Origin: Halorubrum rubrum | GTDB lineage: Archaea; Halobacteriota; Halobacteria; Halobacteriales; Haloferacaceae | Assembly (NCBI RefSeq): GCF_024494685.1 | Contig: NZ_JANHDM010000002.1 | Location: forward strand, 1-64,000 | Direction of reading: 5' to 3' | Length of the DNA stretch: 64,000 nucleotides | Shown here: piece by piece, positions 4,991 to 55,009 of the stretch | Position numbering within the stretch: position 1 is the first letter of the stretch | Layout of the letters: the number at the start of each line of letters is the position of its first letter | Translations under genes and position numbers: made by a program | The notes under the pieces: generated by a model | Told to the model about the DNA's origin: nothing | Database searches by the model: none | What the model saw: the letters and a program-made list of their open reading frames with translations, nothing else

Positions 4991-5318
4991 GCGGTGGCGC
5001 GCCTGCGAGCGCCCGGCAGGGCGCGAGCAGCCCGCGAGGGAGTCGGTCGCCCGGAGCGACGCGGAGGGCGGCCGACGAGGCTGGGGAGGCACGAGGTGCG
5101 GGGCGGGACTCAAAGGGGCAGCCGCGAGGACTCGATGCGCTCGCTGCGGTCCTCAGTCGGTCGCTACCGCTCCCTCCTTGCGGTCCTTACGTCGCGCGTC
5201 TTCGCCCTCGCGGCTGGGGCTTTGGAGGCGTTCTCCGCAGTCACGTTTTCCGTGTCGTACAGCCGAGCGACTGGGGCTTTGGTGATGTTCACCGCGCTAA
5301 CAACGAGATACGATCGCG
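4991..5318 (+). repeat. Structured intergenic repeat, copy 1
   Basis: First of six related elements in the window. Module A (4991-5107) contains hairpin A, GCGCCC 5009-5014 with GGGCGC 5019-5024, and hairpin B, GTCGG 5042-5046 with CCGAC 5072-5076, followed by the conserved GAGGCTGGGGAGGC block (5077-5090). Module B (about 5118-5217) is a long hairpin, CAGCCGCGAGG pairing with CCTCGCGGCTG across a loop rich in cgctcgctgcgg-type sequence. Tail units ending in GGGGCTTTGG occur at 5210-5225 and 5267-5282, spaced 57 bases. The element lies between kynU and the helicase gene. No coding frame in it looks real. Confidence 0.75.
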
Positions 5319-5427
5319 CAACTACGGCTTCGGCGAGCGGCACTACACCGCCGACACTCAGCTAAAGACGTTCCTCGTACAGCGACGAACTTAATCGGCC
5401 GAGCGCCCAACGTCCGACGATCAGACG

Positions 5428-8334
5428 ATGGCGGAACCGTCGGGTATGGACGCCTTCACCCGCCTCGGGAGCGAGGTCCGCGGGGCGCTCTCCGAGCGGG
5501 GCTTCTCGACGCCCACGGAGCCGCAGCGGAAGGCGATCCCGCCGATCGCGGCCGGGAGGAACGCCCTCGTGCTCGCACCCACGGGCACCGGGAAGACCGA
5601 GACCGCGATGCTGCCCGTCCTCGACGCGATCCACCGCGCCCGCGACGCCCCCGGCGACCCCCCGCGTGAGGGGATCTCCGCGCTCTACATAACCCCGCTC
5701 CGCGCGCTCAACCGCGACATGATGGACCGGCTGGAGTGGTGGGGCGACCGGCTCGGGATCGAGGTCGCGGTGCGTCACGGCGACACCACCCGGTACGAGC
5801 GGTCGAAGCAGGCCGACGACCCGCCCGACGTGTTGATCACGACGCCCGAGACGCTCCAGGCGATCCTGACGGGATCGAAGATGCGGGTCGCCCTCGAGGA
5901 CGTCGAACACGTCGTGGTCGACGAGGTCCACGAGCTGGCGTCGGCGAAACGCGGCGCCCAGCTGACGGTCGGGCTCGAGCGGCTCCGGCGGGTCGCGGGG
6001 CCGTTCCAGCGGATCGGGCTGAGCGCGACGGTGGGGTCGCCGGAGGAGGTGGGGCGGTTCCTGGTCGGCTGCGGGCGGCGCGACCCGGACCGGGAGGGTG
6101 ACCGCGCGTTCGAGACGGTCGAGGTCGCGGCCGGGACCCGGACCGACGTGCGCGTGCTCGACCCCGAGATCACGGGGGCGGATTCGCGGCTGGCCGGCGA
6201 GCTCGCGACCGACGAGACGACCGCGAGTCACGTCCGCGCGATCCGCGAGACGGTCCGCGAGAACGACTCGACGCTGATCTTCGTCAACACGCGCCAGACC
6301 GCGGAGGCGCTCGGATCGCGGTTCAAGACGCTCGCCGAGGGCGACCCCGAGGACGAGACGGTCACGATCGAGGTCCACCACGGCTCGCTCTCGACGGAGG
6401 TCCGCGTCGACGTCGAGGACCGCTTCAAGGCCGGCGCGGTCGACGGGCTCGTCTGTACGTCCTCGATGGAGCTGGGCATCGACGTGGGGCGCGTCGACCA
6501 CGTGGTCCAGTACGGGAGCCCCCGCGAGGTCGCCCGGCTGCTCCAGCGGGTCGGGCGCGCGGGCCACCGCCGCGACCTGGTCTCGGAGGGGACCGTCGTG
6601 ACGCAGGGGGGCGACGACACGCTGGAGGCGATGGCGATCGCCCGGCGGGCCGGCGAGGGGCTCGTCGAGCCGGCGAGCATCCACCACGGCAGCCTCGACA
6701 CGGTGGCGAACCAGGTCGTCGGCGTCGTGATGGACGAGGGGGAGGTCCACGCCAGGACGGCCTACGAGACGATCACGAACGCGTACCCCTTCCGCGACCT
6801 CTCCGAGCCGACGTTCCAGGAGATCGTCCGCGAGCTGGACGGGAACCGCCTGCTGTGGCTCGACGAGGAGTCGGACACCCTCGAGAAGTCGGGGGGGACG
6901 TGGCAGTACTTCTACGCGAACCTCTCGATGATCCCCGACGAGTCCACCTACGAGGTGTACGACATGTCCTCCCGGCGGGGGATCGGCACCTTGGACGAGC
7001 GGTTCGTCGTCAACTTCGCCGGGCCGGGCGAGACGTTCGTCCAGCGCGGCGAGATGTGGCGGATCACGGAGGTCGACGAGGAGGAGGAGCGCGTCGAGGT
7101 CACGCCGATCGCCGACCCCGCCGGAGAGGTTCCCTCGTGGGTGGGTCAGGAGATCCCCGTCCCGAGGCCGGTCGCCGAGGAGGTCGGGCGGATCCGCGGG
7201 GAGGTCGCGAGCGCGCTCGAGGCGGGGTCGACGCCGGCGGCGGTCGCGGGCGACCTGGCCGACCGGTACCCGGCGGACGAGCGGACGGTCCGGGAGGCGA
7301 TCGGGACGATCGCGGACCACGTCGACGCCGGCCACCCCGTGCCGACGGACGAACGGGTCACCATCGAGGGGAGCGCGCGGACCGTCGCGGTGAACGCGAC
7401 GTTCGGCCACGAGGTCAACGAGACGCTCGCACGGCTGCTCGCCGCGCTCGTCGGCCAGCGCACGGGGTCGTCCGTCGGGATGGACGTCGACCCCTACCGC
7501 GTCGAGTTCGAGGTGCCGGGCGGGGCCGACTCCGGCACGTTCCGGGAGGTCCTCGAGACGACCGATCCCGATGGGTTGGCGGCGTACCTCGAGATCGCCG
7601 TGAAGAACTCGGACGCGCTGAAGTTCACGCTCGCGCAGGTCGCCGCGAAGTTCGGCGCGGTCAAGCGCTACCGGGAGGGTCGCGGGAAGTTCGGCGGCGA
7701 TCGACTCCTCGCGGCGCTGGAGGGGACGCCAGTCTACGACGAGGCGCTCCGGGAGGTGTTCCACGCCGACCTCGCGGTCGCGGAGACGGCCGACGTGCTC
7801 GAGGCGGTCCGGTCCGGCGGGATCGACCTCGCGACCGCTCGCGAGCGCACGCCCCTCGGCACGGCCGGCCGGTCCGCCGGAACGGAGTTCCTCGTGCCCG
7901 AGAACGCCGACGCCGACGTGATCGAGACGGTCCGCGAGCGCATCCGGGACGACCGGGTTCGCCTCTTCTGTCTCCACTGCCGGGACTGGGAGCGCACCAC
8001 GAAGGTCAGGCGGGTCGGAGAGCGGCCGGAGTGTCCGGAGTGCGGATCGACGCGCGTCGCGGCGCTGAACCCGTGGGACGAGGAGACCGTCGCCGCGGTC
8101 CGCGCCGCGGAGAAGGACGACGAGGAGGAGCGCCGCACGGAGCGGGCACACCGGGCGGCGAGTCTCGTCCAGTCACACGGGAAGCGCGCGGTGATCGCGA
8201 TGGCCGCTCGCGGCGTCGGCCCGCACAACGCCGCCAGGATCATCAACAGGCTGCGCGAGGACGAAGACGAGTTCTACCGCGACGTGCTGCGCCAGGAACG
8301 CGAGTACGCGCGAACGCAGTCGTTCTGGGACTGA
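5428..8334 (+). CDS. lhr: Lhr-family DEAD/DEAH superfamily 2 helicase
   Basis: A large ATP-dependent nucleic-acid helicase (968 residues) of the Lhr family, implicated in DNA repair and recombination. Visible motifs are the Walker A APTGTGKTE near residues 50-58, YITPLRALNRDM (motif Ia), the DEVH box in VVDEVHELAS near residue 165, SATVG (motif III), CTSSMELGIDVG and QRVGRAGHR (motifs V and VI, about residues 345-385). An Lhr-specific winged-helix/core region follows, and the C-terminus carries a zinc-ribbon-like CLHC...CPEC pair near residue 848 and a helix-rich tail. Length and zinc pair fit archaeal Lhr proteins. The start at 5428 has acttaatcgg upstream (5389-5398); an internal ATG six codons later is an alternative. 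It stands alone after repeat copy 1. Confidence 0.9.
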   Translation: MAEPSGMDAFTRLGSEVRGALSERGFSTPTEPQRKAIPPIAAGRNALVLAPTGTGKTETAMLPVLDAIHRARDAPGDPPREGISALYITPLRALNRDMMDRLEWWGDRLGIEVAVRHGDTTRYERSKQADDPPDVLITTPETLQAILTGSKMRVALEDVEHVVVDEVHELASAKRGAQLTVGLERLRRVAGPFQRIGLSATVGSPEEVGRFLVGCGRRDPDREGDRAFETVEVAAGTRTDVRVLDPEITGADSRLAGELATDETTASHVRAIRETVRENDSTLIFVNTRQTAEALGSRFKTLAEGDPEDETVTIEVHHGSLSTEVRVDVEDRFKAGAVDGLVCTSSMELGIDVGRVDHVVQYGSPREVARLLQRVGRAGHRRDLVSEGTVVTQGGDDTLEAMAIARRAGEGLVEPASIHHGSLDTVANQVVGVVMDEGEVHARTAYETITNAYPFRDLSEPTFQEIVRELDGNRLLWLDEESDTLEKSGGTWQYFYANLSMIPDESTYEVYDMSSRRGIGTLDERFVVNFAGPGETFVQRGEMWRITEVDEEEERVEVTPIADPAGEVPSWVGQEIPVPRPVAEEVGRIRGEVASALEAGSTPAAVAGDLADRYPADERTVREAIGTIADHVDAGHPVPTDERVTIEGSARTVAVNATFGHEVNETLARLLAALVGQRTGSSVGMDVDPYRVEFEVPGGADSGTFREVLETTDPDGLAAYLEIAVKNSDALKFTLAQVAAKFGAVKRYREGRGKFGGDRLLAALEGTPVYDEALREVFHADLAVAETADVLEAVRSGGIDLATARERTPLGTAGRSAGTEFLVPENADADVIETVRERIRDDRVRLFCLHCRDWERTTKVRRVGERPECPECGSTRVAALNPWDEETVAAVRAAEKDDEEERRTERAHRAASLVQSHGKRAVIAMAARGVGPHNAARIINRLREDEDEFYRDVLRQEREYARTQSFWD

Positions 8335-8570
8335 CGCGGATCTCCGGGCGACGCGAGGTCGCGATCGCCCTCCACCCGACGTCGTCACCGGGGGACCGCC
8401 GCGGATCGGTGGTCGAACGCGGGCGCGAGATCCCGCACATAGATCAGTAACGACCATTAGAGAAAGAAAATCGATAGTAATACCTCTTCGATGACGATAT
8501 ACGCACAGATTATCACGCCTCTCCTTCATGATCTGATACTGGAGGACTGTCGGAGTGGATGAACCACATA

Positions 8571-8578
8571 TTTATATA
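8571..8578 (+). promoter_or_regulatory. Strong TATA box of the first peptide-binding protein gene
   Basis: The sequence tttatata is a near-consensus archaeal TATA box. Transcription would start near 8601, a few bases before the ATG at 8606, so the start at 8606 is plausible; the ATG at 8627 would leave a leader of about 25 bases. Confidence 0.7.
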
Positions 8579-8605
8579 CTTCCTACCGAAACGGTGGGTT
8601 GATCC

Positions 8606-10348
8606 ATGGTTAGGTCAGACGCGGACATGAAACGGCGTGACTTCCTGAAAGCGACCGGTGCCGGCGGCACGGTCGGAATTACGGCCCTCGCCGGCTGTTC
8701 CGGTGGCGGCGGTGGCGGCGGCGACGACGGTTCGGGCGACGACGGCTCCGGTGACGACGGTTCGGGCGACGACGGCTCCGGTGACGACGGTTCGGGCGAC
8801 GACGGCTCCGAGAACGGCGGCGGGAGCAACCTCCCGACGTACACATACGTTAACAACGCACAGAGCTACAACCCGCCGCGACACGACGCGATCAACCTGA
8901 TCGCGAGCCAGTTCGACGACGAACTCGGCCTCGACATCGAGGTCGACGTGCTCGAGTGGGGGACCCTGTTCAGCCGGGTCTCCGAGGAGTACGACTACAG
9001 CTTCTCGACGTGGCACACGTTCTTCGTCTCGGAGCCGGTGACCGAGCTGAACAACCTGCTCAACTCCGGCAACACCGACCCCGGACAGGGGAACTACGCG
9101 GGCTACGTGAACGAGGACCTCGACGAGCTGATGTCGAGCTACCTGGCCGAGCCGGACGCCGACACGCGGATCGACCAGTGTCACGAGATCCAGCAGACCG
9201 TGATGGACGACGTGCCGATGATGCCCGTCACGCATATGCCACAGACGGCCATCTACAACAACAACCAGGTCTCCAACTGGGAGTCCGACCTCGCGAACGG
9301 GTTCAACTCCTACTGGACGATGATCAACCTGGAGATGGAGGGCGACGAGGACACCCTCAAGGGCTACTGGCCGGAGACGCTCTCGACGATGAACGTGCTC
9401 GGGCACAACGACGAGAGCAAGCACGTCTACCAGTTCAACATGCTGTACGACTTCCTGGTCCAGTACAACGGCGACGCCGAACCGGACCCGGAGGTCAGCC
9501 TCGCGACGGACTGGGAGCGCGTCGACGAGACCACGATGGAGTACACCATCCGGACGGACCACTCGTGGCACGACGGCGAGGACGTCACGGCCGAGGACGT
9601 CGCGTTCTCGTACAACTACATCGTCGATAACGAGGTGCCGCTGTACTCCACCCAGGCCGGCTACATCGAGGGTGCGGAGGTCGTCGACGACGAGACCGTT
9701 CGGATCAACATGTCCGAGCCGCTCGGGCCGTTCAACCTCTCGGTCGCCAACCTCATCCCGATAATCCCCGAACACAAGTGGGCCGACCGGGACAACCCGA
9801 GCGAGGCCAGCATCGAGGAGCCGGTCGGCAGCGGTCCGATGATGTTCGACTACTGGGAGCAGGGCAGCGAGTTCGGCATGACGAAGTTCGACGAGCACTT
9901 CGCGCCCGTCGACTTCGATCGCCGCTTCTGGCGGGTCATCCCCGAGGCGTCGACGGTGTGGGAGAACCTCATCGACGGCGACCTCAACTACGAGCCGTTC
10001 GGCCGGATCGACCGCCAGCTCAACGAGAACCAGGACAACGAGAACATCGGGACCCAGTTCAACCCCGCGGCGACGTTCTGGCACTTCACCCCGAACGAGC
10101 GTCAGGAGGGACTCGACGACCCGCAGATGCGGAAGGCGCTCGTCGAGGCCATCCCGCGGACGCCCATCGTCGACCAGATCCTGTTCGGCTTCCCGGAGCC
10201 CGGCTTCAACGTCGTCTCGGAGGCGTTCGGTCCGCTCCACACCGAGGACGTCACCGAGTACGAGGAGAGCATCGACGCGGCCCGCAGCCGGCTCGAGGAG
10301 GCCGGCTACTCCTGGAACGACGAGGGCGCGATCCAGGCACCCGAATAG
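8606..10348 (+). CDS. Peptide/nickel-type solute-binding lipoprotein with permuted domain order
   Basis: Extracytoplasmic binding protein of ABC family 5 (DppA/OppA type), 580 residues, feeding the permease encoded next. The N-terminus carries a twin-arginine signal (KRRDFLKATG, residues 9-18) and lipobox LAGC with Cys31 as the probable lipid anchor, then a Gly/Asp/Ser linker. Segment order is unusual: the part that normally closes the protein (VDVLEWGTLFSRV, then YAGYVNEDLDELMSSYL near residue 166) comes first, and the part that normally opens it (SWHDGEDVTAEDVAFSYNYI near residue 320) comes second, with the C-terminus ending at ARSRLEEAGY. This is the pattern of a circular permutation. The substrate is likely peptides or similar, but not provable. 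An ATG at 8627 directly before the Arg pair is an alternative start. Confidence 0.88.
   Translation: MVRSDADMKRRDFLKATGAGGTVGITALAGCSGGGGGGGDDGSGDDGSGDDGSGDDGSGDDGSGDDGSENGGGSNLPTYTYVNNAQSYNPPRHDAINLIASQFDDELGLDIEVDVLEWGTLFSRVSEEYDYSFSTWHTFFVSEPVTELNNLLNSGNTDPGQGNYAGYVNEDLDELMSSYLAEPDADTRIDQCHEIQQTVMDDVPMMPVTHMPQTAIYNNNQVSNWESDLANGFNSYWTMINLEMEGDEDTLKGYWPETLSTMNVLGHNDESKHVYQFNMLYDFLVQYNGDAEPDPEVSLATDWERVDETTMEYTIRTDHSWHDGEDVTAEDVAFSYNYIVDNEVPLYSTQAGYIEGAEVVDDETVRINMSEPLGPFNLSVANLIPIIPEHKWADRDNPSEASIEEPVGSGPMMFDYWEQGSEFGMTKFDEHFAPVDFDRRFWRVIPEASTVWENLIDGDLNYEPFGRIDRQLNENQDNENIGTQFNPAATFWHFTPNERQEGLDDPQMRKALVEAIPRTPIVDQILFGFPEPGFNVVSEAFGPLHTEDVTEYEESIDAARSRLEEAGYSWNDEGAIQAPE
8721..8810 (+). repeat. 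Three 30-base tandem repeats encoding a Gly/Asp/Ser linker
   Basis: Units 8721-8750, 8751-8780 and 8781-8810 are almost identical and encode (GDDGS)6 just after the lipidated cysteine of the binding protein. The near identity, including codon choice, points to recent expansion by slippage. The encoded acidic linker probably acts as a flexible spacer from the membrane. Confidence 0.85.
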
Positions 10349-10383
10349 AGCGCACGGGCGCTTACCCCACCTCACGGCGCAAT

Positions 10384-10391
10384 CTTTAAAC
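10384..10391 (+). promoter_or_regulatory. TATA-like element before the permease genes
   Basis: The sequence ctttaaac lies about 34 bases upstream of the ATG at 10422 in the 73-base gap after the binding-protein gene, suggesting that the permease/ATPase genes can be transcribed separately from it. Confidence 0.45.
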
Positions 10392-10421
10392 GAACCACAA
10401 GGATATTAGTGACTAAGTAAC

Positions 10422-11405
10422 ATGGGAAAAGCTAGCTTCGTTGTCAGGCGCACGCTCCAACTCGTCGCGACGTTGTGGGCGGTCGGAACGGTGCTGTTCG
10501 GGCTGTTCAGGCTCATGCCCGGCGATCCGACGTCGTACGTGGTCTCCTCGCAGATGACACAGGAGGCCCGCCAACGGCTCATCGAGAGCTACGGCCTCAA
10601 CGACCCGTTGTACGTCCAGTACATCCGGTTCCTCCAGAACCTGGTCCAGCTGAACTTCGGGCAGTCGTTCCACTCGAATCAACCCGTCACCGACATCATC
10701 GCGACGTACATGCCGAACACGCTCGTGTTGATGCTGTCGGCGTTCGTCGTCGCGTACGCCATCGGGATCACGCTCGGCGTGTTGTCCGGCTGGTACCGCG
10801 GCTCCCGGTTCGAGCGGAGCACGGTCATCACGGCGTTGACGGCCCGGAGCGTGCCGACCTTCTACGTCGGGCTCATCGTGCTCTGGATCTTCGGTGCCGA
10901 ACTCGGCCTCATCCCGATGAGCGGGATGACCAGTCTGGGGACCGGCGGTCAGAGCACGGGGTTCCTCGACATGGTCCTCACCGTGGACTTCCTCAAACAC
11001 CTCATGGCGCCGGCGGCGGTGCTGGCGTTCTACTACATGGGATACCCGCTCCTGATCATGCGCTCGAGCATGCTCGAGGTGCTCTCGGAGGACTTCATCG
11101 ACGTCTGCCGCGCGAAGGGGCTCAAGGAGCGGACGATCATGTTCAAACACGCCGCCCGGAACGCCCTGCTCCCGATCGTCACGGCGGCGGCGATCGCCCT
11201 CGGCTACGCCGTGGGCGGGAGCGTCCTCATCGAGACCGTGTTCGCGTGGCCCGGGATCGGTCGGGAGATGGTCCGCGCGGTCCTCCGGCGCGACTTCCCG
11301 GTCGCACAGGGCACGTTCATCGTGCTCGCGTCGACCATCATCTTCCTGAACTTCGTGGCCGACCTCGCGTACGGCTACCTCGACCCGCGGGTGACTTACG
11401 ACTAG
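10422..11405 (+). CDS. dppB: ABC transporter permease, DppB type
   Basis: Inner-membrane subunit of a peptide/nickel-type importer, 327 residues. The first helix region (LVATLWAVGTVLFGLFRLMPGDP) and the following TQEARQRLIESYGLNDP match the DppB/OppB N-terminal signature. About six hydrophobic segments follow, and the EAA-type coupling loop appears near residue 225 as DVCRAKGLKERTIMFKHAARN. This loop docks onto the ATPase subunits encoded downstream. The next gene begins four bases after the stop, so the two are co-transcribed. The gene symbol denotes family membership; the substrate is not shown by sequence. Confidence 0.9.
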   Translation: MGKASFVVRRTLQLVATLWAVGTVLFGLFRLMPGDPTSYVVSSQMTQEARQRLIESYGLNDPLYVQYIRFLQNLVQLNFGQSFHSNQPVTDIIATYMPNTLVLMLSAFVVAYAIGITLGVLSGWYRGSRFERSTVITALTARSVPTFYVGLIVLWIFGAELGLIPMSGMTSLGTGGQSTGFLDMVLTVDFLKHLMAPAAVLAFYYMGYPLLIMRSSMLEVLSEDFIDVCRAKGLKERTIMFKHAARNALLPIVTAAAIALGYAVGGSVLIETVFAWPGIGREMVRAVLRRDFPVAQGTFIVLASTIIFLNFVADLAYGYLDPRVTYD

Positions 11406-11409
11406 ACCA

Positions 11410-20107: not shown

Positions 20108-20260
20108 TACCGCGGTGGCGCGCCTCCGAGCGAGCCAGCGGCTCGCGAGGAGCCCGCGAGGGAGTTGCGAGCGCGAACGCGCGAGCAACGAGGCTGGGGA
20201 GGCGTGAGGTACTGTGCGGGGTGGGGCTCTGGGAACGTTCACCGGGCCAGCAACGACCTC
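20108..20260 (+). repeat. Structured intergenic repeat, copy 2 (short form)
   Basis: Hairpin A is GCGAGCC 20128-20134 with GGCTCGC 20138-20144. Hairpin B is GTTGC 20164-20168 with GCAAC 20185-20189, enclosing a second paired run GCGCG...CGCGC. The conserved GAGGCTGGGGAGGCGTGAGG follows at 20190-20209. CGCCTCC near 20119-20125 can pair with GGAGGCG near 20198-20204 to close the whole module. Module B is missing; one tail unit (ggggctctgggaacgttcac) follows, ending close to the stop of the F420-reductase gene. Confidence 0.75.
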
Positions 20261-36523: not shown

Positions 36524-36742
36524 CGTCGGCGCGCCGGTGAGCGCCCGGCGGGCGCGAACCGCCCGCGAGGGAGTTGCGAGCGCTTGAAAAGCGCGAGCAA
36601 CGAGGCTGGGGAGGCGTGAGGCTGCGGTTGCGGGGCTGTGCGGGAGGGGCGGGGCTTTGGAGATGTTCGTCGGAACCGTGTTTCTCGATCAGTACGGTCA
36701 GGGAGCTGGAACTTTGGAGACGGTCACTGCGCCGGCAACGGG
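36524..36742 (+). repeat. Structured intergenic repeat, copy 3
   Basis: Hairpin A is GCGCCC 36541-36546 with GGGCGC 36550-36555. Hairpin B is GTTGC 36573-36577 with GCAAC 36597-36601, stacked on an inner GCGC...GCGC pair with a TTGAAAA loop. The conserved GAGGCTGGGGAGGCGTGAGG runs 36602-36621. Two tail units follow (ggggctttggagatgttc and gctggaactttggagacggt). It lies between glmM and the convergent zinc-ribbon gene. Confidence 0.75.
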
Positions 36743-39490: not shown

Positions 39491-39626
39491 GTACGTGAAA
39501 CGTCTCCAAAGGCCACCCAACCGCACAGCACCTCACGCCTCCCCAGCCTCGCGGCTCCTTTCAGTCGCCGCGTCCCTCGCGGACTCCTCGCGCCCTATCG
39601 GGCGCTCGGAGGCGCGCCACCGCACC
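39491..39626 (-). repeat. Structured intergenic repeat, copy 4 (reverse orientation)
   Basis: Positions are on the plus strand. Hairpin B arms are GCGGC 39551-39555 with GCCGC 39567-39571; hairpin A arms are GCGCCC 39590-39595 with GGGCGC 39600-39605. The conserved block appears as CCTCACGCCTCCCCAGCCTC at 39531-39550. One tail unit (ctccaaaggcc, near 39503-39513) lies on the sufS side. It sits in the divergent spacer between sufS and hemC. Confidence 0.72.
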
Positions 39627-39688
39627 GAAGATCGCTCATTCTCTCATCTGTAGTGTAGTGAGCATCCGCGAACGAAGTGAGCGGTTCA

Positions 39689-39724
39689 CCGACGGCGAGG
39701 CGAACGCCGAGCCGTCGGCTTTTT
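39689..39724 (+). terminator. Terminator-like hairpin with T tract
   Basis: The arms CCGACGGC (39689-39696) and GCCGTCGG (39711-39718) are perfectly complementary and are followed at once by CTTTTT (39719-39724). It lies between the divergent genes sufS and hemC, so it does not end an annotated gene; an unannotated plus-strand transcript would be needed to explain it. Confidence 0.5.
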
Positions 39725-39733
39725 CCCTCCAGG

Positions 39734-39793
39734 TTTTTCGAGGAGCGGTTCCCGCAGCGAACGGAGTGAGCGAGGGAACCGCTCCTCGAAAAA
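39734..39793. repeat. Perfect 20-base inverted repeat, terminator-like on both strands
   Basis: Arms 39734-39753 and 39774-39793 are exactly complementary over 20 bases, starting with five T and ending with five A, around a 20-base centre containing GCGAACGGAGTGAGCG. A transcript in either direction would form a long GC-rich stem with flanking T or A tract. The hemC promoter element lies just downstream. Confidence 0.85.
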
Positions 39794-39812
39794 GGTGGAA
39801 GTGAACTGGTGC

Positions 39813-44295: not shown

Positions 44296-44389
44296 AGAAC
44301 TCCCCTCCGTCTGCGGTCCATATCGAACGTTCGTCGGATCTACGTTTTCACTCCGTCGCTTCCGGCGAGGCGTTCGGAGGCGGCTCGGG

Positions 44390-45706: not shown

Positions 45707-45883
45707 GTCCGTCCGTTCCTGACGGGTGACGCTCAAGAGTCTTGCCATCGATCTCGGACCGCCCGGATCGGTCGAGCGTCCGTCCCGCTCGCCCACCACG
45801 TCCCGTTCGCGGTGGCGTGACGCCCGTGTTCGGAATTGCGCGGAAGCGTGTGGGAGCGATCCGCTCCGTTCGATCCGTCCCCG

Positions 45884-45896
45884 AATCTTATCTTTC
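45884..45896 (+). promoter_or_regulatory. TATA-like tract of the sensor-kinase gene
   Basis: The sequence aatcttatctttc lies about 33-45 bases before the ATG at 45929, so transcription would begin about ten bases before the start codon. Confidence 0.4.
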
Positions 45897-45928
45897 GTGG
45901 CGTCCAATCGGCGAGGAACAGGCCGCCC

Positions 45929-48697: not shown

Positions 48698-48841
48698 ACC
48701 GCCTCGGGGTCGCGCCCCGAGGCACTCGGCCTGCTTAGCCTGTAGATCCCCGAGTCCCGTAGCGGTTCCCGGCAGGGATCGGGTTCCGGTCTCCCGCGGT
48801 GCGTTCCCACGTTGTCCAGTGATATCATTGGTTAAGTAACG

Positions 48842-48850
48842 TATTTATTG
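48842..48850 (+). promoter_or_regulatory. TATA element of the small zinc-finger gene
   Basis: The sequence tatttattg is centred about 25 bases before the GTG at 48871, in an A/T-rich patch that stands out from its surroundings. Confidence 0.55.
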
Positions 48851-48870
48851 TAAAACGACATATTATCCGC

Positions 48871-49023
48871 GTGACACGCTGTATTCACTGCGGGAAACCC
48901 TCTTCGGGGCGGTTCAGTCTCGTTTTCGAGCGGGAGTCGGAGCAGCGGGAGATGGACCTCCCGCTCTGCGATCAGTGCGTCGATCGGTTCGAGGCCGCTC
49001 CGGACGTGCGACTGTCCGAGTGA
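48871..49023 (+). CDS. Short zinc-finger protein with two CxxC pairs
   Basis: A 50-residue protein starting at GTG 48871 and ending at TGA 49021-49023. It begins (M)TRCIHCGKPSSGRF and later has LPLCDQCVDRFEA, giving CxxC-x25-CxxC, a compact zinc-binding layout seen in many haloarchaeal small proteins of unknown function. The coding frame is supported by GC-rich third positions, an acidic tail and an appropriately placed TATA element. It lies between the sensor kinase and the convergent SHOCT gene. Likely a small regulatory or nucleic-acid-binding protein; function unproven. Confidence 0.75.
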   Translation: MTRCIHCGKPSSGRFSLVFERESEQREMDLPLCDQCVDRFEAAPDVRLSE

Positions 49024-49045
49024 CGGGGCGACCGCTCCGATCTCC

Positions 49046-49486
49046 TCAGGGCGACGCGGAGTCCGACTCCAGCGCCGTCTCGATCTCCGTCATCTCCTCC
49101 GCTCGTCCTCGCGATCCGTCTCGATCGACCGCTCTCTCGAATTCCTCGGTCTCCAGCAGCCGGTCGAGCCGTCGCTCGAACTCCGGCTCGTCGATCTCGC
49201 CGGTCGCGTACCGTCGCCGGAGCGTCGCGATCGGGTTCTCTCCGTCGTGACTCCTCGTTTCTCCGACATTCGCACTCGTCGTCTCCGCCGGGTCCGCGGG
49301 CTCGACGAGCGGGACGTCGTCGCCGAGGAGCGCCACGAGCGGGAGCAGGAGCAGGAACCCCGTCACGAACGTCGCGGGGACGAGCACGCCGAGCTCGAGC
49401 ACCGCGAAAAGCGAGGTCAGCCCGAACGAGAGCACCGCGACCAGTCCCATGAGCCGCTTCTTTTCGAACGTGGGGAGGGCAGCCAT
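49046..49486 (-). CDS. SHOCT-domain membrane protein
   Basis: A 146-residue protein. The N-terminal half has two hydrophobic segments (about residues 13-28 and 33-52), and the middle carries a SHOCT motif (NPIATLRRRYATGEIDEPEF with following RRLDRLLETEEF, about residues 92-118). SHOCT is a short helical domain often attached to membrane or DNA-binding domains and thought to mediate oligomerisation. The C-terminal tail is acidic and disordered. The ATG at 49486 fits the start of the first hydrophobic domain; the frame is open 15 codons further. It is divergent from the XTP phosphatase gene. Confidence 0.8.
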   Translation of the reverse strand: MAALPTFEKKRLMGLVAVLSFGLTSLFAVLELGVLVPATFVTGFLLLLPLVALLGDDVPLVEPADPAETTSANVGETRSHDGENPIATLRRRYATGEIDEPEFERRLDRLLETEEFERAVDRDGSRGRAEEMTEIETALESDSASP

Positions 49487-49570
49487 GATCGCGATCGTCT
49501 CGTCGCGGCGAAAAAAGCGTGTCGCCGCCATCGACGCCTATTCCCGTCGCGCGCGCGGACTCGTCGCCAC

Positions 49571-50239
49571 ATGCTGCGGTACGTGACGACCAATCCGGGG
49601 AAGGTCCGCGAGGCGGAGAGCTACCTGGCGGACGGCTCGGTCAGCCAACTGGACTTCGACTACGCGGAGATACAGGCGGACGAGCTCGCACCGATCGCGG
49701 CGCGCGGCGCGCGCGACGCGTACCGGGAGGCGGGCGAACCCGTCCTCGTCGACGACGCGGGACTGTTCGTCGAGGCGCTCGACGGCTTCCCCGGTCCCTA
49801 CTCCTCGTACGTGGAGGACACCCTCGGGATCGACCGCGTCTGGGAGATCGTCCACGACCTCGAGGACCGCCGGGCGGCGTTCCGATGTACCCTCGCGTAC
49901 TGCGACGGCGCGGGGTTCGCCGCCAGCCCCGACGCGGTCGACCGCGGCGATCGCGTCGCCGCCGCGGCCGCGGGGCCCGGCGGGGGGACCGACGACGGCG
50001 GCGAGGACGACGAGGGCGGTGGCGGCGAGGGGCGCGCCGAGTCGCTCCCCGTCAAGCTGTTCGAGGGGTACGTTCCCGGCCGGGTCGTGGCCCCACGCGG
50101 CGACGGGGGGTTCGGCTACGACCCGATCTTCGAACACGACGGCGAGACGTTCGCCGAGATGGACACGGAGCGAAAGAACGCGGTCTCACACCGCGGCCGG
50201 GCGCTGGAGAAGTTCGCGGAGTGGTATGCGGACCGCTGA
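49571..50239 (+). CDS. XTP/dITP pyrophosphatase (HAM1/RdgB family)
   Basis: A 222-residue house-cleaning enzyme that hydrolyses non-canonical purine triphosphates (XTP, dITP, ITP). The start LRYVTTNPGKVREAESYL is the family N-terminus; PVLVDDAGLFVEALDGFPGP near residue 57, FRCTLAYCDG near residue 104, DGGFGYDPIF near residue 178 and KNAVSHRGRALEKF near residue 204 complete the signature. Between the last two a Gly/Asp/Glu-rich insertion of about 30 residues lengthens the usual about 190-residue protein, probably a surface loop. gcctattccc about 27 bases upstream fits as TATA element. The gene is convergent with the PIN-like gene, whose stop lies five bases beyond. Confidence 0.9.
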   Translation: MLRYVTTNPGKVREAESYLADGSVSQLDFDYAEIQADELAPIAARGARDAYREAGEPVLVDDAGLFVEALDGFPGPYSSYVEDTLGIDRVWEIVHDLEDRRAAFRCTLAYCDGAGFAASPDAVDRGDRVAAAAAGPGGGTDDGGEDDEGGGGEGRAESLPVKLFEGYVPGRVVAPRGDGGFGYDPIFEHDGETFAEMDTERKNAVSHRGRALEKFAEWYADR

Positions 50240-50244
50240 GGCGT

Positions 50245-50742
50245 TCACCACTCCCGCGCGTCCCGGTCCGGTCCGGGGTACTCCCCGCCGACGACCTCGG
50301 GGTAGAGCCGCTCGGGCGAGAACACGCTCGCGAACGCGCGCGGCTCGCGAACGCTCACGGGGAATCGGCCCTTGAGTCCAGCGGCCGCGCCGGCGCTCGT
50401 CAGCGCCGGATCGAGGCTGATCACCTGCATCGCGCCGCCGCGGTACGCCGACGCCAGCGCCGGGTGGTCGCCCTCGGGGTGGGTGGCGGGCTCGCGCCAC
50501 GCCGCCACCCGCTCGCGCCAGTCGCGGGCGAGTTCCCGGTCGGCGAGCGAGGCCACGACCGCCTCCGCGTCCGCGAGGAGGGCGTCGCTGGCGACGAGCG
50601 TCGTCCAGGCGTGTGCGCGGAGGACGTCGAGCGCGTCGCGGGCGGGACCGCCGACGAGCAGGTCCGCCGCCAACACGTCGGCGTCGGCGACGACCCGAGC
50701 GGGGCTCGGTTCGGGTCGCGCGTCGGTGCCGGCGTCGCTCAT
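50245..50742 (-). CDS. PIN-like domain protein of unknown function
   Basis: A 165-residue protein with a PIN-like layout: an N-terminal acidic site in VVADADVLAADLL (about residues 17-29), an acidic helix LLADAEAVVASLAD, a region GDHPALASAYRGGAMQVISLDPAL (about residues 91-114) with two further acidic positions, and an otherwise helical fold. PIN domains are metal-dependent nucleases, often the toxin of VapBC pairs or components of RNA processing. Its start overlaps the preceding 39-residue gene by four bases, so a two-gene unit is clear. I cannot see a complete set of four catalytic acids with confidence, so nuclease activity is a guess. Confidence 0.65.
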   Translation of the reverse strand: MSDAGTDARPEPSPARVVADADVLAADLLVGGPARDALDVLRAHAWTTLVASDALLADAEAVVASLADRELARDWRERVAAWREPATHPEGDHPALASAYRGGAMQVISLDPALTSAGAAAGLKGRFPVSVREPRAFASVFSPERLYPEVVGGEYPGPDRDAREW

Positions 50743-50858
50743 GCGTCCTCGCCCCCTTCCGTGCCCCGTTCCGCGCGCCGCTTCGCGAGCGCCCGCGAGA
50801 TCGCCTCCTCGTCGACGTCGTAGCCGGCCGCGCGCTCGAACAGGTCGCCGAAGGTCAT
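50739..50858 (-). CDS. Small 39-residue protein coupled to the PIN-like gene
   Basis: A short charged protein beginning MTFGDLFERAAGYDVDEEA and continuing with a basic helix (ISRALAKRRAERG) and an acidic end. The stop overlaps the start of the PIN-like gene as ATGA, a strong sign of translational coupling and hence of a real gene. The size and position resemble an antitoxin-plus-toxin arrangement, though nothing in its 39 residues looks like a known DNA-binding fold. I have no family name for it. Confidence 0.55.
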   Translation of the reverse strand: MTFGDLFERAAGYDVDEEAISRALAKRRAERGTEGGEDA

Positions 50859-51161
50859 GCCCGGACCGTCGCCCGCCGCACGTATCGACCTTCCGGACGG
50901 AACCCGCGGCGCGGCCGCGCGGCGCGTCGACCGCGAATCCCCCTCGGCGACGTGGGACGCTCGTCGGACGGGGGGCACACGTCTGACGCGGATATAAGTC
51001 GGTTCAGTCGGTCGATCTCGGCAGGCGCGTCGCTCCGATCGACCTCGGGGTGGGGTGCCATTCCCCCGGTTTTTCCGACGGCGGCACGGCTCGTCGCCGC
51101 GCGCCCTACCCATGCCTACGCGTACCAAACAACGATGTGGATGGAACCCGTACGCGGGGGT

Positions 51162-51593
51162 ATGCTCGGATCACCGTCCACGACCGACGTCGCGACCGGC
51201 GACGCGGGTCGCATGGGCTCGCTCGCCTCGGCGCACTGGGTCGGGATCGCCGCCGCGGTCGTGAGCGCGCTCGTCCACCTCGCGTTGGGGGTGGGGTTCC
51301 TCGGCGACTTCCTCGAGACCGGCCTCACCGTCTCGCTGGCGATGGGCGTCTCCTTCCTCGTCGCAGTCGCGGGGTTCCTGGTCGGCATCTGGTTCGTCCT
51401 CACCGACCGCTTCCGGCCGACCGTCTACCTGCTCGGGATCCCCTTCACCGCCGGCCAGATCGTCCTCTGGTACGCCTTCAACAGCCCCGGACTCCCCGCG
51501 CCGCCGGCGATAAACCCGCTTTCGGCGGCCGACAAACTCGCGCAGATCGTCCTGATCGCGGTGCTCGTGGTCCTGTACCGCCGGGAGTCGTGA
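51162..51593 (+). CDS. Four-helix membrane protein, unknown function
   Basis: A 143-residue integral membrane protein with four hydrophobic segments (from about residues 24-45, 51-72, 82-101 and 121-139), separated by short loops: WVGIAAAVVSALVHLALGV, VSLAMGVSFLVAVAGFLVGI, VYLLGIPFTAGQIVLWYAF and KLAQIVLIAVLVVLYRRES. The pattern is shared by haloarchaeal proteins of unknown function. The ATG at 51162 is chosen because it begins the short polar N-terminus; ATGs at 51135 and 51213 are also in frame. It is convergent with the CDP-alcohol phosphatidyltransferase gene downstream. Confidence 0.7.
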   Translation: MLGSPSTTDVATGDAGRMGSLASAHWVGIAAAVVSALVHLALGVGFLGDFLETGLTVSLAMGVSFLVAVAGFLVGIWFVLTDRFRPTVYLLGIPFTAGQIVLWYAFNSPGLPAPPAINPLSAADKLAQIVLIAVLVVLYRRES

Positions 51594-51629
51594 CCGAGTC
51601 GCCGCCGAGACGTCGTCACGCGATCGTAC

Positions 51630-52385
51630 CTACAACCGGCCGCTGGCGACGAGCCAGTCGCGCGCGAACGAGGCGACGACCGGCACCGCCACCGCGGCCG
51701 TGAGGAGCCGCGAGATCCCCTGCCCCGGCACCGGCGACAGCGCCAGCCACGTCGCGAGCATCGTCGCCGCGCCGATCGGCCGACGGAGCCGGCTCGGGCG
51801 CAGGTCGTGGGTCGGGAGTCCCAGCCGTCGTCGCCGTCGGAGCCCGTAGGCGAAGAGCGGTCGGGCGCCACCGACCGCGAGGAACGCGAGCGGGGCCGCG
51901 CCGGCGACGACGGCGGCCGTCGCGCCCACGAGGACGGTCGCCCCGTCGACCTCGACGTCGAGTTCCGCGCCGAGGTCGGTCACCGCGTCGGTCGCGCGCG
52001 CGACCGCGCCGTCGACCGCGTCGCCGCCGGCGGCGACCGCGAACAGTCCGCCGGGGAGCCAGCCGCTCGCGGCCCCGCCCGCGACCGGGTCGACGACGAG
52101 GTACGCGCCGAGCAGCGCGAGCGCGGACGCGCGGAGGGTCGTCACGACGGTCGCTGCCGTCACCGGCTCCCGGCCGGCCGCCTCGCGGGCTCGGCCGGCC
52201 GCGACCCGGATCGCCGCGACCGCGACCACCCCGCCGAGCGCGACGCCGCCGAGCGCGACGAGGGGGAGCCCGGCGGCGAGCAGTCCCGCCGCGCCGATCC
52301 CGGTCGGGACCGCCCACAGCGCGACGAGCGGGAGCCAGCCGCCGTCGATCGGGAGCCGGCGGACGACGCGATCCCTCGAGGTCAT
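51630..52385 (-). CDS. CDP-alcohol phosphatidyltransferase family protein
   Basis: A 251-residue membrane enzyme. The catalytic signature DxxDGxxARx8GxxLDxxxD is present at GDAVDGAVARATDAVTDLG with following AELDVEVD (about residues 122-147). About six hydrophobic segments surround it, including the N-terminal helix WLPLVALWAVPTGIGAAGLL. Such enzymes transfer a phosphoalcohol (glycerol phosphate, inositol phosphate, serine) from CDP-diacyl- or CDP-archaeol, making archaeal membrane lipids; the acceptor alcohol cannot be read from the sequence. The ATG at 52385 gives the family-like N-terminus. It follows the FAD oxidoreductase gene on the same strand after 74 bases. Confidence 0.86.
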   Translation of the reverse strand: MTSRDRVVRRLPIDGGWLPLVALWAVPTGIGAAGLLAAGLPLVALGGVALGGVVAVAAIRVAAGRAREAAGREPVTAATVVTTLRASALALLGAYLVVDPVAGGAASGWLPGGLFAVAAGGDAVDGAVARATDAVTDLGAELDVEVDGATVLVGATAAVVAGAAPLAFLAVGGARPLFAYGLRRRRRLGLPTHDLRPSRLRRPIGAATMLATWLALSPVPGQGISRLLTAAVAVPVVASFARDWLVASGRL

Positions 52386-52459
52386 CGATCCCACCAGGGG
52401 ACCGCCGGGAAAACCCCTTTCGGCGGGCGGGGAGAACAGCGGCGGGACCCCTCGTCCCG

Positions 52460-53572
52460 TCACTCGAAGCGGTTCGGAGACAGGTACGCCGCGATCTCCG
52501 GATCGACCGCCTCCCCGGCGAGTCGCCTCGCGAGGACGTCGCCGACCGCGGGCGCGAGCGTGACGCCGAGGCCGCTCATGCCGGCGGCGAGGTGGAAGCC
52601 GTCGACCGCCGACTCGCCGACGACGGGGATCCCGTCGGGCGTGAGCGTCCGGACGCCGACCCAGTCGGCGACCACCTCGGCCCCCTCGAGCCGCGGGATC
52701 GCCGCCTCGATCCGCTCGCCGATCTCGAGGTAGAAGTCGTGGTCGACCGAGCGCGCGTCGGTCGGGTCGAGGCGCCCGGCGTCCCCGTAGCTCGCGCCGA
52801 AGCGCCCTCCGAACGCCCGGTTCCGTCCCTCGCCGCGGACGTAGCGGCCGTCGCCGAACTGAACGAAGGGGAGCGAGAAGGGGTCGTCCTTCCCGAGGAC
52901 GACGACCGGCCCGCGGTTGTGTCGGAGGGGCAGCGAGACGCCGGCCATCTCGTTCACCGCCGGTGCCCACGGCCCCGCCGCGTTCACCACCGCGGCGGCC
53001 GGCCGCGTTCCAGCCGCGGTCTCGACGCCGGCGACCCTCCCGTCCTCGACGCGGACGTCCGTCACGGCGGTGCCGGTCTCGACGGTCACGCCGTCGTCGG
53101 CCGCTGTCGCCTCGCGGACGGAGTACTGGACGATCTCCGCGGGGTCGAGGTAGCCGTCGTTCGGGGTCCACATCGCGCCGGCGACCGCGTCGGGGTCGAG
53201 CCCGTGGTCGGCGAGCGCGGCCGGCTCGAGGATCGACACCTCGACGCCGAACTCCGAGAGCGCCGCCGCGGCTTCGCGAATCTCGGCCAGCTCCCGATCG
53301 GTCCGAGCGACGTCGAGCGTCCCGATCCGCTCGAAGTCGAGGGTGCCGTCCTCGATCAGCGGCTCGTAGTGGTCCCACGCGCGCTCGCGAAGTTCGTGGC
53401 TCAGCGGGTCCGGATCCGATTGGTGGCGGACGAAGATCGCGACGGAGTCGCCGGTGGTCCCGGAGCCGAGCGCGTCGCGCTCGTAGAGGACGACGGGTCG
53501 CGGGTGGTCGCGCAGGCAATACGCGAGGCTCGCGCCGACGATGCCGCCGCCGACGATGACGATCGGGTCCAT
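52460..53572 (-). CDS. FAD-dependent oxidoreductase (DadA/glycine-oxidase type)
   Basis: A 370-residue flavoprotein of the DAO superfamily. The FAD dinucleotide motif is IVIVGGGIVGASLAYCL at residues 4-20, followed by VVLYERDALGSGTTGDSVAI, and the C-terminal FAD segment reads GFHLAAGMSGLGVTLAPAVGD near residue 330. The middle part includes AAAVVNAAGPWAPAVN near residue 170. These match D-amino-acid dehydrogenase, sarcosine oxidase and glycine oxidase relatives; the substrate is probably an amine or amino acid. The frame is open far upstream, but the ATG at 53572 gives the exact start of the Rossmann fold. Repeat copy 5 begins about 95 bases upstream. Confidence 0.88.
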   Translation of the reverse strand: MDPIVIVGGGIVGASLAYCLRDHPRPVVLYERDALGSGTTGDSVAIFVRHQSDPDPLSHELRERAWDHYEPLIEDGTLDFERIGTLDVARTDRELAEIREAAAALSEFGVEVSILEPAALADHGLDPDAVAGAMWTPNDGYLDPAEIVQYSVREATAADDGVTVETGTAVTDVRVEDGRVAGVETAAGTRPAAAVVNAAGPWAPAVNEMAGVSLPLRHNRGPVVVLGKDDPFSLPFVQFGDGRYVRGEGRNRAFGGRFGASYGDAGRLDPTDARSVDHDFYLEIGERIEAAIPRLEGAEVVADWVGVRTLTPDGIPVVGESAVDGFHLAAGMSGLGVTLAPAVGDVLARRLAGEAVDPEIAAYLSPNRFE

Positions 53573-53666
53573 CGGATTCTCGGTCTCCGCAGTCCGGTAA
53601 AAACCCCGTGTTCGGCTCGAGGAAGCCGGCGGTCGCTTGGCTGATCGAGGAAACGTCGACCGGAAG

Positions 53667-54075
53667 TGCGGTGGCGCGCGCCTCCGAGTGCCCGGAGGGC
53701 ACGAGGAGCGCGTGCGAGGGACGCTGCGAGCGCGTGGAACGCGCGAGCAGCAGCGAGGCACTACGCGCCTCTGGCAGCCGGACGTAGTCCGGCGACGAGG
53801 CTGGGGAGGCGTGAGGCGCGGGGCTGTGCGGGGCGGGGGGGATTCAAGGGGGCAGTCGCGAGGACGAAGCACGGCGACGTAAGCAGCGTGGCGCTACGCG
53901 CCACGGGCAGCCGGCGGCTCCGCCGCCGGCGACACTGGAAGGAAGTGAGCGACTGAAGCGCGCAACGGGGCCCCCGAGTCCTCGCGACCGGGGCTTTGGC
54001 GGTGTTCATCGTGCTAGCAACGGCGTAGTACCGAGCGGCTGGGACTTTGGAGACGCTCATCACGTCGGCACCGGC
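53667..54075 (+). repeat. Structured intergenic repeat, copy 5 (longest form)
   Basis: Hairpin A arms GTGCCC 53688-53693 and GGGCAC 53697-53702. Hairpin B arms GCTGC 53723-53727 and GCAGC 53747-53751, with an extra inner GCGCG...CGCGC pairing. An additional about 40-base insert with two short hairpins precedes GACGAGGCTGGGGAGGCGTG (53791-53810). Module B pairs GTCGCGAGGAC with GTCCTCGCGAC across an expanded loop. Two tail units, each with CTTTGG, end near 54075. Also inside is an inserted arm, ggcagccggcggctccgccg. All of this lies between the FAD oxidoreductase start and the pterin-synthase gene. Confidence 0.72.
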
Positions 54076-54172
54076 CCGGCAGCCGCCGATTCGATGCCAT
54101 ACGGTGGGGTGGTGCTCGGGGTCGTTCCGTGACGTCGCCCGCACGACCGATCTCCGATCGGGGCGGGGACAC

Positions 54173-54182
54173 GCTTTTGATC
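54173..54182 (+). promoter_or_regulatory. TATA-like element of the pterin-synthase gene
   Basis: The sequence gcttttgatc is centred about 26 bases before the GTG at 54203, a leaderless arrangement like that of hemC and sufU. Confidence 0.5.
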
Positions 54183-54202
54183 GCTCGGTCCGTGGTGATC
54201 CC

Positions 54203-54586
54203 GTGTACTCGGTTCGCGTCTCCCGGCGGTTCATCGCCCAGCACTTCCTGACCGTGCCGGACGCCGGCCCGGAAGGGGAGCTCCACTCACACCGCTTCGA
54301 GGTCGACGTCGAGGTGGCCGGCCCCGAGTTGAACGAACACGACTACCTCGTCGACATCGACGACCTCGCCGGCCGGATCGACGAACTCGTCGACGAGTAC
54401 GCCGACGCGACGCTCAACGACCGCCCCCGGTTCGAGGGGAACAACCCGAGCGTCGAGCGGTTCGCCCGCGTCTTCTGTGACCGCCTGCTCGAGGGGATCG
54501 AGACCGAGGGGATCGAGACGGCGAGCGTCACGATGTGGGAGGACGAGACCGCGGCCGCGAGCTACCAGACGACCGTGGGGGAGTAA
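54203..54586 (+). CDS. 6-pyruvoyl-tetrahydropterin synthase family protein (QueD/PTPS-like) with Cys-to-Glu change
   Basis: A 127-residue PTPS/QueD-family protein starting at GTG 54203. Zinc ligands of the family are recognisable: His in RFIAQHFLTV (about residue 14) and the HxH pair in ELHSHRFEVDVEV (about residues 28-40). Where QueD and eukaryotic PTPS have Cys four residues before the HxH pair, this protein has Glu (EGELHSH). That Cys-to-Glu exchange is the hallmark of PTPS-III enzymes, which act in the folate pathway on 7,8-dihydroneopterin triphosphate and remove the side chain. The later His of the canonical active-site region also appears replaced (DATLNDRP). So it may belong to pterin rather than 7-deazaguanine biosynthesis. 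Function is inferred. Confidence 0.75.
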   Translation: MYSVRVSRRFIAQHFLTVPDAGPEGELHSHRFEVDVEVAGPELNEHDYLVDIDDLAGRIDELVDEYADATLNDRPRFEGNNPSVERFARVFCDRLLEGIETEGIETASVTMWEDETAAASYQTTVGE

Positions 54587-54640
54587 ACCGAGACGGTTGC
54601 TGCCGCGATTAGCGTCTCCGAACCCTCAGTCGCTCGATCC

Positions 54641-55009
54641 CGTGTCGTTGCTGGTGCGGTGACCACCGCCAAAGCCCCAGTCGCTCGGCTGTACGAAGTG
54701 AAATGAACGACTGCGGTGACCACCGCCAAAGCCCCAGTCGCTCGGCGATACGCAGTTGCCGACACGGTAAACACCGCCAAAGCCCCAGTCGCGAGGCGGC
54801 CGTACGCTCGCTGCGCTCCTCACTCGGTCGCTATCGCTCCCTCGTTGCGGTGCTTGTGTCGCCTACGGCCGCCTCGCGACTGCCCCGTTGAGTCCCACCC
54901 CGCACAGCCCCGCACCTCACGCCTCCCCAGCCTCGTGGCTCACTTCGTTCGCCACGTCCCTCGCGGGCTCCTCGCGCCCGTTCGGGCGCTCGGAGGCGCG
55001 CCACCGCAG
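54641..55009 (-). repeat. Structured intergenic repeat, copy 6 (reverse orientation)
   Basis: On the plus strand the arms of hairpin B are GTGGC 54935-54939 and GCCAC 54951-54955, with CGAAGTGA-type loop sequence; hairpin A is GCGCCCG...CGGGCGC (54973-54988). Module B is a long stem whose 19-base arm CAGTCGCGAGGCGGCCGTA pairs with its complement. Three tail units contain the identical 16-mer CCAAAGCCCCAGTCGC at 54669-54684, 54726-54741 and 54777-54792, spaced 57 and 51 bases. It lies between the pterin-synthase gene and the dehydrogenase gene. Confidence 0.78.

Follow-up and report, generated by a model that had tools for sequence, protein, structure and literature searches.

The first 64,000 nucleotides of contig NZ_JANHDM010000002.1 of the Halorubrum rubrum assembly (the window; the whole assembly has 3.23 Mb in 25 contigs) contain six copies of a structured non-coding element in which two hairpins, A and B, precede a conserved unpaired block. 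The exact core sequence GAGGCTGGGGAGGC occurs in the window at 5077, 20190, 36602 and 53797 on the forward strand and at 39537 and 54921 on the reverse strand; with up to three mismatches there are 33 matches, compared with a mean of 13.9 and a maximum of 25 in shuffles (0/100 reach 33). A search with R1, a covariance model built from 32 aligned copies (four of them from the window), recovered exactly six copies, all with E ≤ 8.6e-9, the best score elsewhere in the window being 16.9 bits (E 0.07). Exact core and R1 thus agree on the same six places, as an initial annotation of this DNA had proposed, and all of the arm pairs that it gave were found: GTCGG/CCGAC, GTTGC/GCAAC (twice), GCGGC/GCCGC, GCTGC/GCAGC and GTGGC/GCCAC for hairpin B, and GCGCCC/GGGCGC, GCGAGCC/GGCTCGC and GTGCCC/GGGCAC for hairpin A. 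Positions 4991–55009, there treated as a single feature, instead hold six separate elements. The observation is real, and the family is larger than first described, with about 100 cores in the genome.

Anatomy of the elements

Sixty stretches, taken in addition to eight loci already in hand, gave 78 H. rubrum copies, which were aligned on the core. Read on the core strand, the element starts with GGTGGCGCG, followed by hairpin A, which consists of P1 (CGCG or CGCGCG), a 1x2 internal loop, P2 (4 bp), a GA/GA block, P3 (mostly 6–7 bp, at most 9) and a loop. AGGGA joins hairpin A to hairpin B, the commonest form of which is 5 bp, GA/GA, 2 to 6 bp and a loop, sometimes with inserted palindromes. 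The unpaired block GAGGCTGGGGAGGCGTGAGGTGCGG lies directly 3′ of hairpin B, the unpaired core being 20 nt long, and is usually followed by GGGACTCAAAGGGGCAG and a long central hairpin, at the apex of which 2-bp steps alternate with GA/GA blocks; in copy 6 this apical ladder reads AC-GA-GG-GA-GC-(GATA)-GC-GA-CC-GA-GT. One or more units of GACTGGGGCTTTGG with a small hairpin form the 3′ end. The conserved 5′ domain is about 100 nt long and whole elements are several hundred nt, with AGGGA and the unpaired core conserved among the aligned copies (which were selected by their core). In the window the elements likewise extend beyond the core, with a central hairpin in copies 1, 5 and 6 and then 3′ units (Table 1); the central module is absent from short copies, such as those at 20190 and 36602, and hairpin B of copy 1 has no GA/GA.

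By eye, a small module of two palindromes (GAGGCGC TAC GCGCCTC ... CCGGAC GTA GTCCGG, with variants) was seen inside hairpin B of the copy at 53797 and of copies at L006, L031, L049, L060, L100 and L101; its first palindrome is reversed at L045.

Table 1. Parts of the six elements, in window positions
Feature	Position	Strand	Evidence
Copy 1 5′ domain: hairpin A, AGGGA, hairpin B, core 5077–5090	4993–5101	+	R1 65.1 bits, E 3.5e-12; exact core
Copy 1 central hairpin, arms CAGCCGCGAGG / CCTCGCGGCTG	5119–5217	+	direct reading
Copy 1 two 3′ units: GGGGCTTTGG + small hairpin + AACAACGA-like end	5207–5308	+	direct reading
Copy 2 5′ domain, core 20190–20203, without central hairpin	20114–20214	+	R1 96.4 bits, E 7e-19; direct reading
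Copy 3 5′ domain, core 36602–36615, without central hairpin	36525–36626	+	R1 92.2 bits, E 5.6e-18
Copy 4 5′ domain, core 39537–39550	39526–39621	-	R1 104.7 bits, E 1.2e-20
Copy 5 5′ domain, core 53797–53810, two-palindrome module within hairpin B	53669–53821	+	R1 49.3 bits, E 8.6e-9 (53670–53770); exact core; direct reading
Copy 5 central hairpin and 3′ units, limits approximate	53821–54080	+	direct reading
Copy 6 5′ domain, core 54921–54934	54910–55005	-	R1 103.4 bits, E 2.3e-20
Copy 6 central hairpin, 19-bp outer stem	54786–54882	-	folded: RNA z -7.2, DNA z -4.5
Copy 6 tandem 3′ units GAGCGACTGGGGCTTTGGCGGTG..CACCGC, limits approximate	54605–54785	-	direct reading

Kept pairing, GA ladders and the folded strand

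Covariation was assessed in the 32 aligned copies, which had been selected for simple hairpins with GA/GA. In the named structure 99.5% of cells are paired and 83 are changed on both sides, compared with 22.5 ± 3.1 after shuffling (0/500 shuffles as high); the covariation score is 0.443 (0.163 shuffled), and controls in which the 3′ partners were slid by 1–3 columns gave only 0–13 two-sided cells. Counted by pair rather than by cell, two-sided changes stand out less (10 pairs versus 7.9 shuffled, with 9/500 shuffles as high), and the number of pair types is not raised (18 versus 20.4). The paired changes described earlier are therefore strong and pairing is kept, but arms are often exchanged whole rather than stepwise, so that covariation here partly reflects module exchange; that module exchange can produce covariation in repeats calls for caution. 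A larger set comprised 265 copies with the core, 231 with AGGGA and 121 that fit hairpin A. Although the fit did not require it, GA/GA occupies the hairpin A internal loop in 112 of these 121 (113/122 in a refit with symmetric scoring), and in the 112 copies up to 55 two-sided changes occur at single positions of P2 and P3. An alternative closing helix offered by RNAalifold (CGCGCC with GGCGTG) is nearly invariant and is therefore neither favoured nor refuted. The Rfam collection (4227 covariance models) gave no match at the gathering threshold across the window, and none at E ≤ 1 for L042, L343 and window positions 54600–55050, in keeping with the initial annotation, which did not recognise the element as a named family.

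The scan for ladders took any hairpin in which two or more X/X dinucleotide blocks stand between 2-bp steps. The element windows hold 44 distinct GA ladders, three TC ladders, six CG ladders (self-pairing) and none of any other dinucleotide; outside these windows, the other 759 kb of sequence from those loci contain one GA and two TC ladders. Among perfect hairpins whose stem is 7 bp or longer, 59/106 inside elements have GNA (39) or TNC (20) loops versus 21/147 outside (Fisher p 5e-12), and the ratio of 3-nt to 4-nt loops is 106:19 inside versus 147:162 outside (Fisher p 2e-13), both tests ignoring shared descent. Loops of hairpin B are most often GNA (54/66 in the fitted set), and the hairpin A loops (n = 112) comprise 34 GNA, 18 GNYA, four GNRA and 56 others. 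Similar GNA or GNNA loops over at least two G-C pairs are found in DNA mini-hairpins of the d(GCGAAGC) type, described as extraordinarily stable (PMC4686876); these are synthetic oligonucleotides, whereas the Halorubrum loops belong to repeats that occur in nature and have tandem GA ladders.

When G-T and A-C were scored equally, 73 G-T and 10 A-C cells were found overall and 28 versus 10 in distinct arms (binomial p 0.0025, descent ignored), the asymmetry being confined to hairpin A (24 versus 5 in distinct arms). The GA blocks, which with few exceptions lie on the core strand, point together with this G-T excess in hairpin A to a single folded strand and not a symmetric cruciform. Of the earlier proposal of a folded RNA or a DNA cruciform, the structured elements with kept pairing stand, and the symmetric cruciform is disfavoured; we dropped it as the main reading because the GA blocks are one-sided (GA 44 versus TC 3), although folding energies do not separate the strands. 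Strand-specificity is not absolute, since the apical GA ladder of copy 1 (window 5130–5206) is inverted with respect to the core strand; it looks as if the two arms of the central hairpin had recombined and so flipped it. The DNA optimum is the proposed hairpin A, whereas the RNA optimum departs from it but closes the inner stem of hairpin B. On the loops and ladders we lean slightly towards single-stranded DNA over RNA.

Distribution, gene context and turnover at fixed sites

At one mismatch or fewer, the 14-mer is found at 100 places in the H. rubrum assembly, versus 15 for the reversed control. All 19 sampled Halorubrum genomes have the core pattern, in 10 to 130 copies (reversed control 0–2 per strand), and 42 sampled genomes from other genera of the same family have 0–3. 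A second genus, evidently Halorussus, has 5–40 copies in 13/17 genomes and 0–1 in the remaining four, and a third has 4–6 copies in 3/4 genomes; among the matches listed for the core are Halorubrum, Haloparvum, Halorussus, Halobellus captivus and some metagenome-assembled genomes. A model search of 293 genomes of the order was positive in 64 genomes and 16/87 genera, including 15/17 genomes of the second genus, but scored at most 13 candidates per genome, so that its counts are not copy numbers. Elements of the second genus (L073–L086) share the 5′ domain and core and usually differ at the 3′ end, where CAGTAGCTAGCT occurs in many of the loci read. The closed genome G281 holds 194 cores over 3.0 Mb. 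Four copies of equal model score (109.7 bits) in genome G021 all lie at the ends of contigs (C10, C15, C25 and C31), which suggests a recent, assembly-breaking expansion. A phage or viral origin was rejected, as the 20-mer of core plus GTGAGG was present in no stretch of the viral contigs and no phage record is similar to copy 6.

Genes were called with a home-made codon-usage caller, and orientation counts omit copies "inside" calls (10 own, 12 GTDB) and at locus edges (8 and 17, respectively). Convergent gaps account for 28/64 gaps with an element versus 17/154 without at the named-species loci (p 2e-7), and for 26/60 versus 3/26 at the own loci (p 0.006); in tandem gaps, sense and antisense placements are about even (14:15 and 16:13). 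In the window, one copy lies between a PTPS gene (54047–54586) and a zinc-dehydrogenase gene. Replication-strand bias was rejected on the closed G281 chromosome, where a test using 92/93 and 100/101 cores gave no orientation domains (excursion p 0.15) and runs not below expectation, and hence no sign of a lagging-strand bias.

Promoter-like AT boxes stand shortly 5′ of the element in 31/67 copies from other species and 11/12 G281 copies, compared with 1/64 and 0/12 in a control stretch further upstream; in H. rubrum and G021 they were seen before 2/62 and 0/6 copies. These counts omit copies without a recognisable 5′ start (15/77 own, 18/85 GTDB and 2/8 G021). Boxes resembling TTTATAAA precede the 5′ domain at L184–L294 and at L342–L352 of G281, are nearly absent from the window's own clade, and are sometimes doubled about 33 bp upstream or found between tandem 3′ units. 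PMC10927574 reports RNA of Haloferax and Halobacterium, not of these elements.

Near-identical dispersed pairs (L055/L056, 99.7% over 351 bp; L042/L046, 98.4% over 431 bp) point to recent copying. They delimit the recently copied own-genome unit, with ARTACAG at one end and CTACAAGCA at the other; by eye these ends, which are approximate, do not look like inverted repeats, and no obvious target duplication was seen. Each end was recognised in 21/78 own copies; among 187 others, the first was recognised in 7 and the second in 2.

Comparison of sites shows both presence and absence. At the copy 6 site, where both flanking genes are kept, four genomes including H. rubrum have an element (386–539 bp) and three have none (45–85 bp). 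The copy 3 site (L159, L160 and L163) is empty in G231, holds a 3′ unit alone in G021 and a remnant without core in G300; that of copy 5 is empty in G231 and G300, and both copies are present in G033 and G068. At the copy 1 site, elements were found in H. rubrum and at L130, L143 and L146, the comparison being uninformative at 26/30 loci, where the upstream gene is not beside the site. A synteny breakpoint coincides with copy 4 (window 39530–39804) in both G068 and G021, suggesting rearrangement between repeats.

Between own copies and named-species loci there are 233 flank matches, of which 176 are not adjacent to an element and 57 adjoin one on the expected side. Orientation agrees in 35 of the 57 and is opposite in 22; 12 of these 22 come from one locus whose query flank held a neighbouring copy, which leaves 35 versus 10 (some pairs enter twice, once per flank). 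In 19 pairs, one or both flanks are orthologous and hairpin B can be read in both members; it is identical in only one of them and mostly of another sequence type. In some orthologous pairs, such as copy 1 and L146, the outer arms are kept and paired changes lie inside; in two copy 5 pairs beyond the 19 (L100 and L101), the arms are kept in one and not in the other. Many sites are thus common to several species by descent, and others are empty; shared sites and orientation with differing hairpin B indicate that sites persist while modules turn over.

Explanations and relationship to known systems

Among the roles suggested initially, a mobile non-coding element fits best. We favour, tentatively and at somewhat short of even confidence, the view that the elements are modular, interspersed non-coding repeats that arose as mobile DNA and form a population across the genus, akin to repetitive extragenic palindromic sequences (REPs) and bacterial interspersed mosaic elements (BIMEs) or to palindrome-associated transposable elements (PATEs), in which the core strand folds when single-stranded and which spread both by copying and by taking the place of resident copies. 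The core strand would have to fold while single-stranded in order to be copied; its fold and the conserved unpaired block GAGGCTGGGGAGGCGTGAGG might be used by some enzyme or recombination step; and other copies would repeatedly overwrite the residents, which would keep the fold intact while the arms at fixed sites are replaced. A bolder and unlikely version is an undescribed class of archaeal element that replicates as one folded strand, of RNA or DNA, made up of GA-ladder hairpins, propagating itself in about 100–200 copies per genome and overwriting its own residents by means of a dedicated enzyme. If the interpretation is right, haloarchaea hold a large and structurally constrained repeat population without a match in Rfam. 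Motifs of the GA-ladder kind are known mainly from oligonucleotide chemistry, and the alternation of 2-bp steps, varying in sequence, with tandem GA would be a natural example of them; because arms turn over while sites stay fixed, copying or conversion would be open to direct test in a tractable genus. The GA ladder, this turnover and the absence of a linked enzyme from the loci examined are the points that deserve note.

Several results weigh against the mobile-repeat interpretation. Hairpin B has no G-T/A-C asymmetry (4 versus 5 in distinct arms), and GA/GA is present in only 66 of its 96 simple fits. For hairpins A and B and the copy 6 central hairpin, RNA z-scores (-1.7, -4.1 and -7.2; ViennaRNA) are better than those of DNA (-1.0, -3.1 and -4.5), DNA parameters leave the inner stem of hairpin B open, and the opposite strand as DNA folds about equally well (-1.8, -3.1 and -4.6). 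The inverted ladder of copy 1 and the lack of orientation domains in G281 point the same way, as do the conserved unit, which is not the same between clades, and the empty sites, which gave neither a clean insertion junction nor exact ends. No enzyme was found for the element: the sole Y1 (PF01797) transposase gene of H. rubrum is interrupted, 11/52 Halorubrum genomes, including ones with 66, 68, 92 and 99 cores, have no Y1 match, and none of the 31 Y1 loci examined, out of 104 matches, contains an element.

A rival interpretation is a family of structured non-coding RNA genes or RNA elements of 3′ untranslated regions, with a transcribed core strand that functions as folded RNA. The one-stranded GA blocks (GA 44, TC 3), the G-T excess of hairpin A (24 versus 5), the better RNA z-scores in all three stretches, the conserved unpaired block and the TATA-like boxes (31/67 and 11/12, against 1/64 and 0/12 in the controls) are all consistent with it. 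We nevertheless consider this possible but rather unlikely, given that the box precedes just 2/62 H. rubrum copies and 0/6 in G021. The distance from TATA box to transcription start is about 26 nt, and a box at -15 would therefore place the RNA start inside hairpin A; in addition, the folded strand in tandem gaps is as often antisense as sense to its neighbours, and among the four-base loops of hairpin A the GNYA type (18) outnumbers GNRA (4). The small-RNA gene suggested initially is thus possible on the box counts of other species (31/67 and 11/12), yet unproven, with boxes at 2/62 copies in H. rubrum itself. Improbable, in our estimation, is a BIME-like element of DNA topology or chromosome organisation that serves convergent gene ends: the six-fold odds of a convergent gap, the 194 cores over 3.0 Mb of G281 and the retention of site and orientation across species (35 versus 10 opposite) speak for it, but convergent gaps are also where insertions are least harmful, copy numbers range from 10 to 130 over 19 congeners and from 0 to 3 in 42 genomes of the family's other genera, and one-sided GA blocks disfavour a symmetric cruciform. 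A host benefit, for example at convergent gene ends, would be secondary to mobility and is unproven.

That the elements are dead repeats, their arms complementary merely through template switching or arm-to-arm correction and with no selection on the fold, could explain why arms are often exchanged whole and why small perfect palindromes are inserted. Arm correction would, however, remove the tandem GA mismatches, which are kept in 112/121 hairpin A fits and in the ladders, where apart from the three TC cases no other mismatched dinucleotide occurs, and the unpaired core and AGGGA are conserved (in copies selected by core); we regard this account as very improbable. We give the least credence to degenerate ends of IS200/IS605-type insertion sequences, that is PATEs in the strict sense, mobilised in trans by a Y1 transposase. 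PATEs of Haloquadratum are indeed described as transposase-free, palindromic, without target duplications and partly heterogeneous (PMC3119063), but 15/17 TnpB loci have no core and the other two just adjoin a copy, 0/31 examined Y1 loci have an element, and 11/52 genomes lack Y1. Parentage by Y1, including the REP-associated tyrosine transposase (RAYT), or by IS605 is accordingly unsupported by both sets of loci.

For the mobile-repeat interpretation, the closest known systems are REP/BIME/REPIN sequences and the repeats of Haloquadratum walsbyi. The former are, like the Halorubrum elements, high-copy, extragenic, palindromic and mosaic, and evolve as populations; REPs themselves are described as 20–40 bp long, bearing a GTAG or CGTC tag and accompanied by a RAYT (PMC2817692, PMC3116915, PMC8049555, PMC3733652). 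Copy numbers of about 100 or more per genome are reached here too (100 in H. rubrum, 194 in G281), congeners ranging down to 10. In contrast, the Halorubrum unit is not of about 20–40 bp, but has a 5′ domain of about 100 nt with tandem-GA hairpins and a 20-nt unpaired core, and no Y1 transposase is linked to it in the loci and genomes counted above. PATEs and the small mobile repeats (SMRs) of H. walsbyi, the movement of the latter being described as enigmatic, resemble the Halorubrum elements as transposase-free haloarchaeal repeats that are palindromic and heterogeneous, with nested small modules (PMC3119063). The Halorubrum elements have palindromes and are too short for a transposase gene, and their two-palindrome module recalls the small mobile repeats nested in PATEs. 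In contrast to PATEs, whose palindromes resemble IS605-type ends (PMC3119063), they occur at the IS605-type loci of H. rubrum only as neighbours. Because the defining features tested in these two systems are not all present, we place the elements as a variant of that kind and not as a member. None of the haloarchaeal names looked for, Halorubrum among them, occurs in the main texts of PMC12306157 and PMC3733652, and no description of such repeats was found in the open-access literature searched.

Among the 17 TnpB loci of H. rubrum, 11 have no similarity to its own elements; two hold a core merely by adjoining a copy, two match the L036 query solely in sequence outside its element, and two have best matches of 21–30 nt (E 0.001). 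At L179 (C24:25584–26267) the only Y1 gene of the genome is interrupted by some 325 bp, among them a hairpin that ends in GGGTGGGGCTTTG, and a TnpB gene adjoins it.

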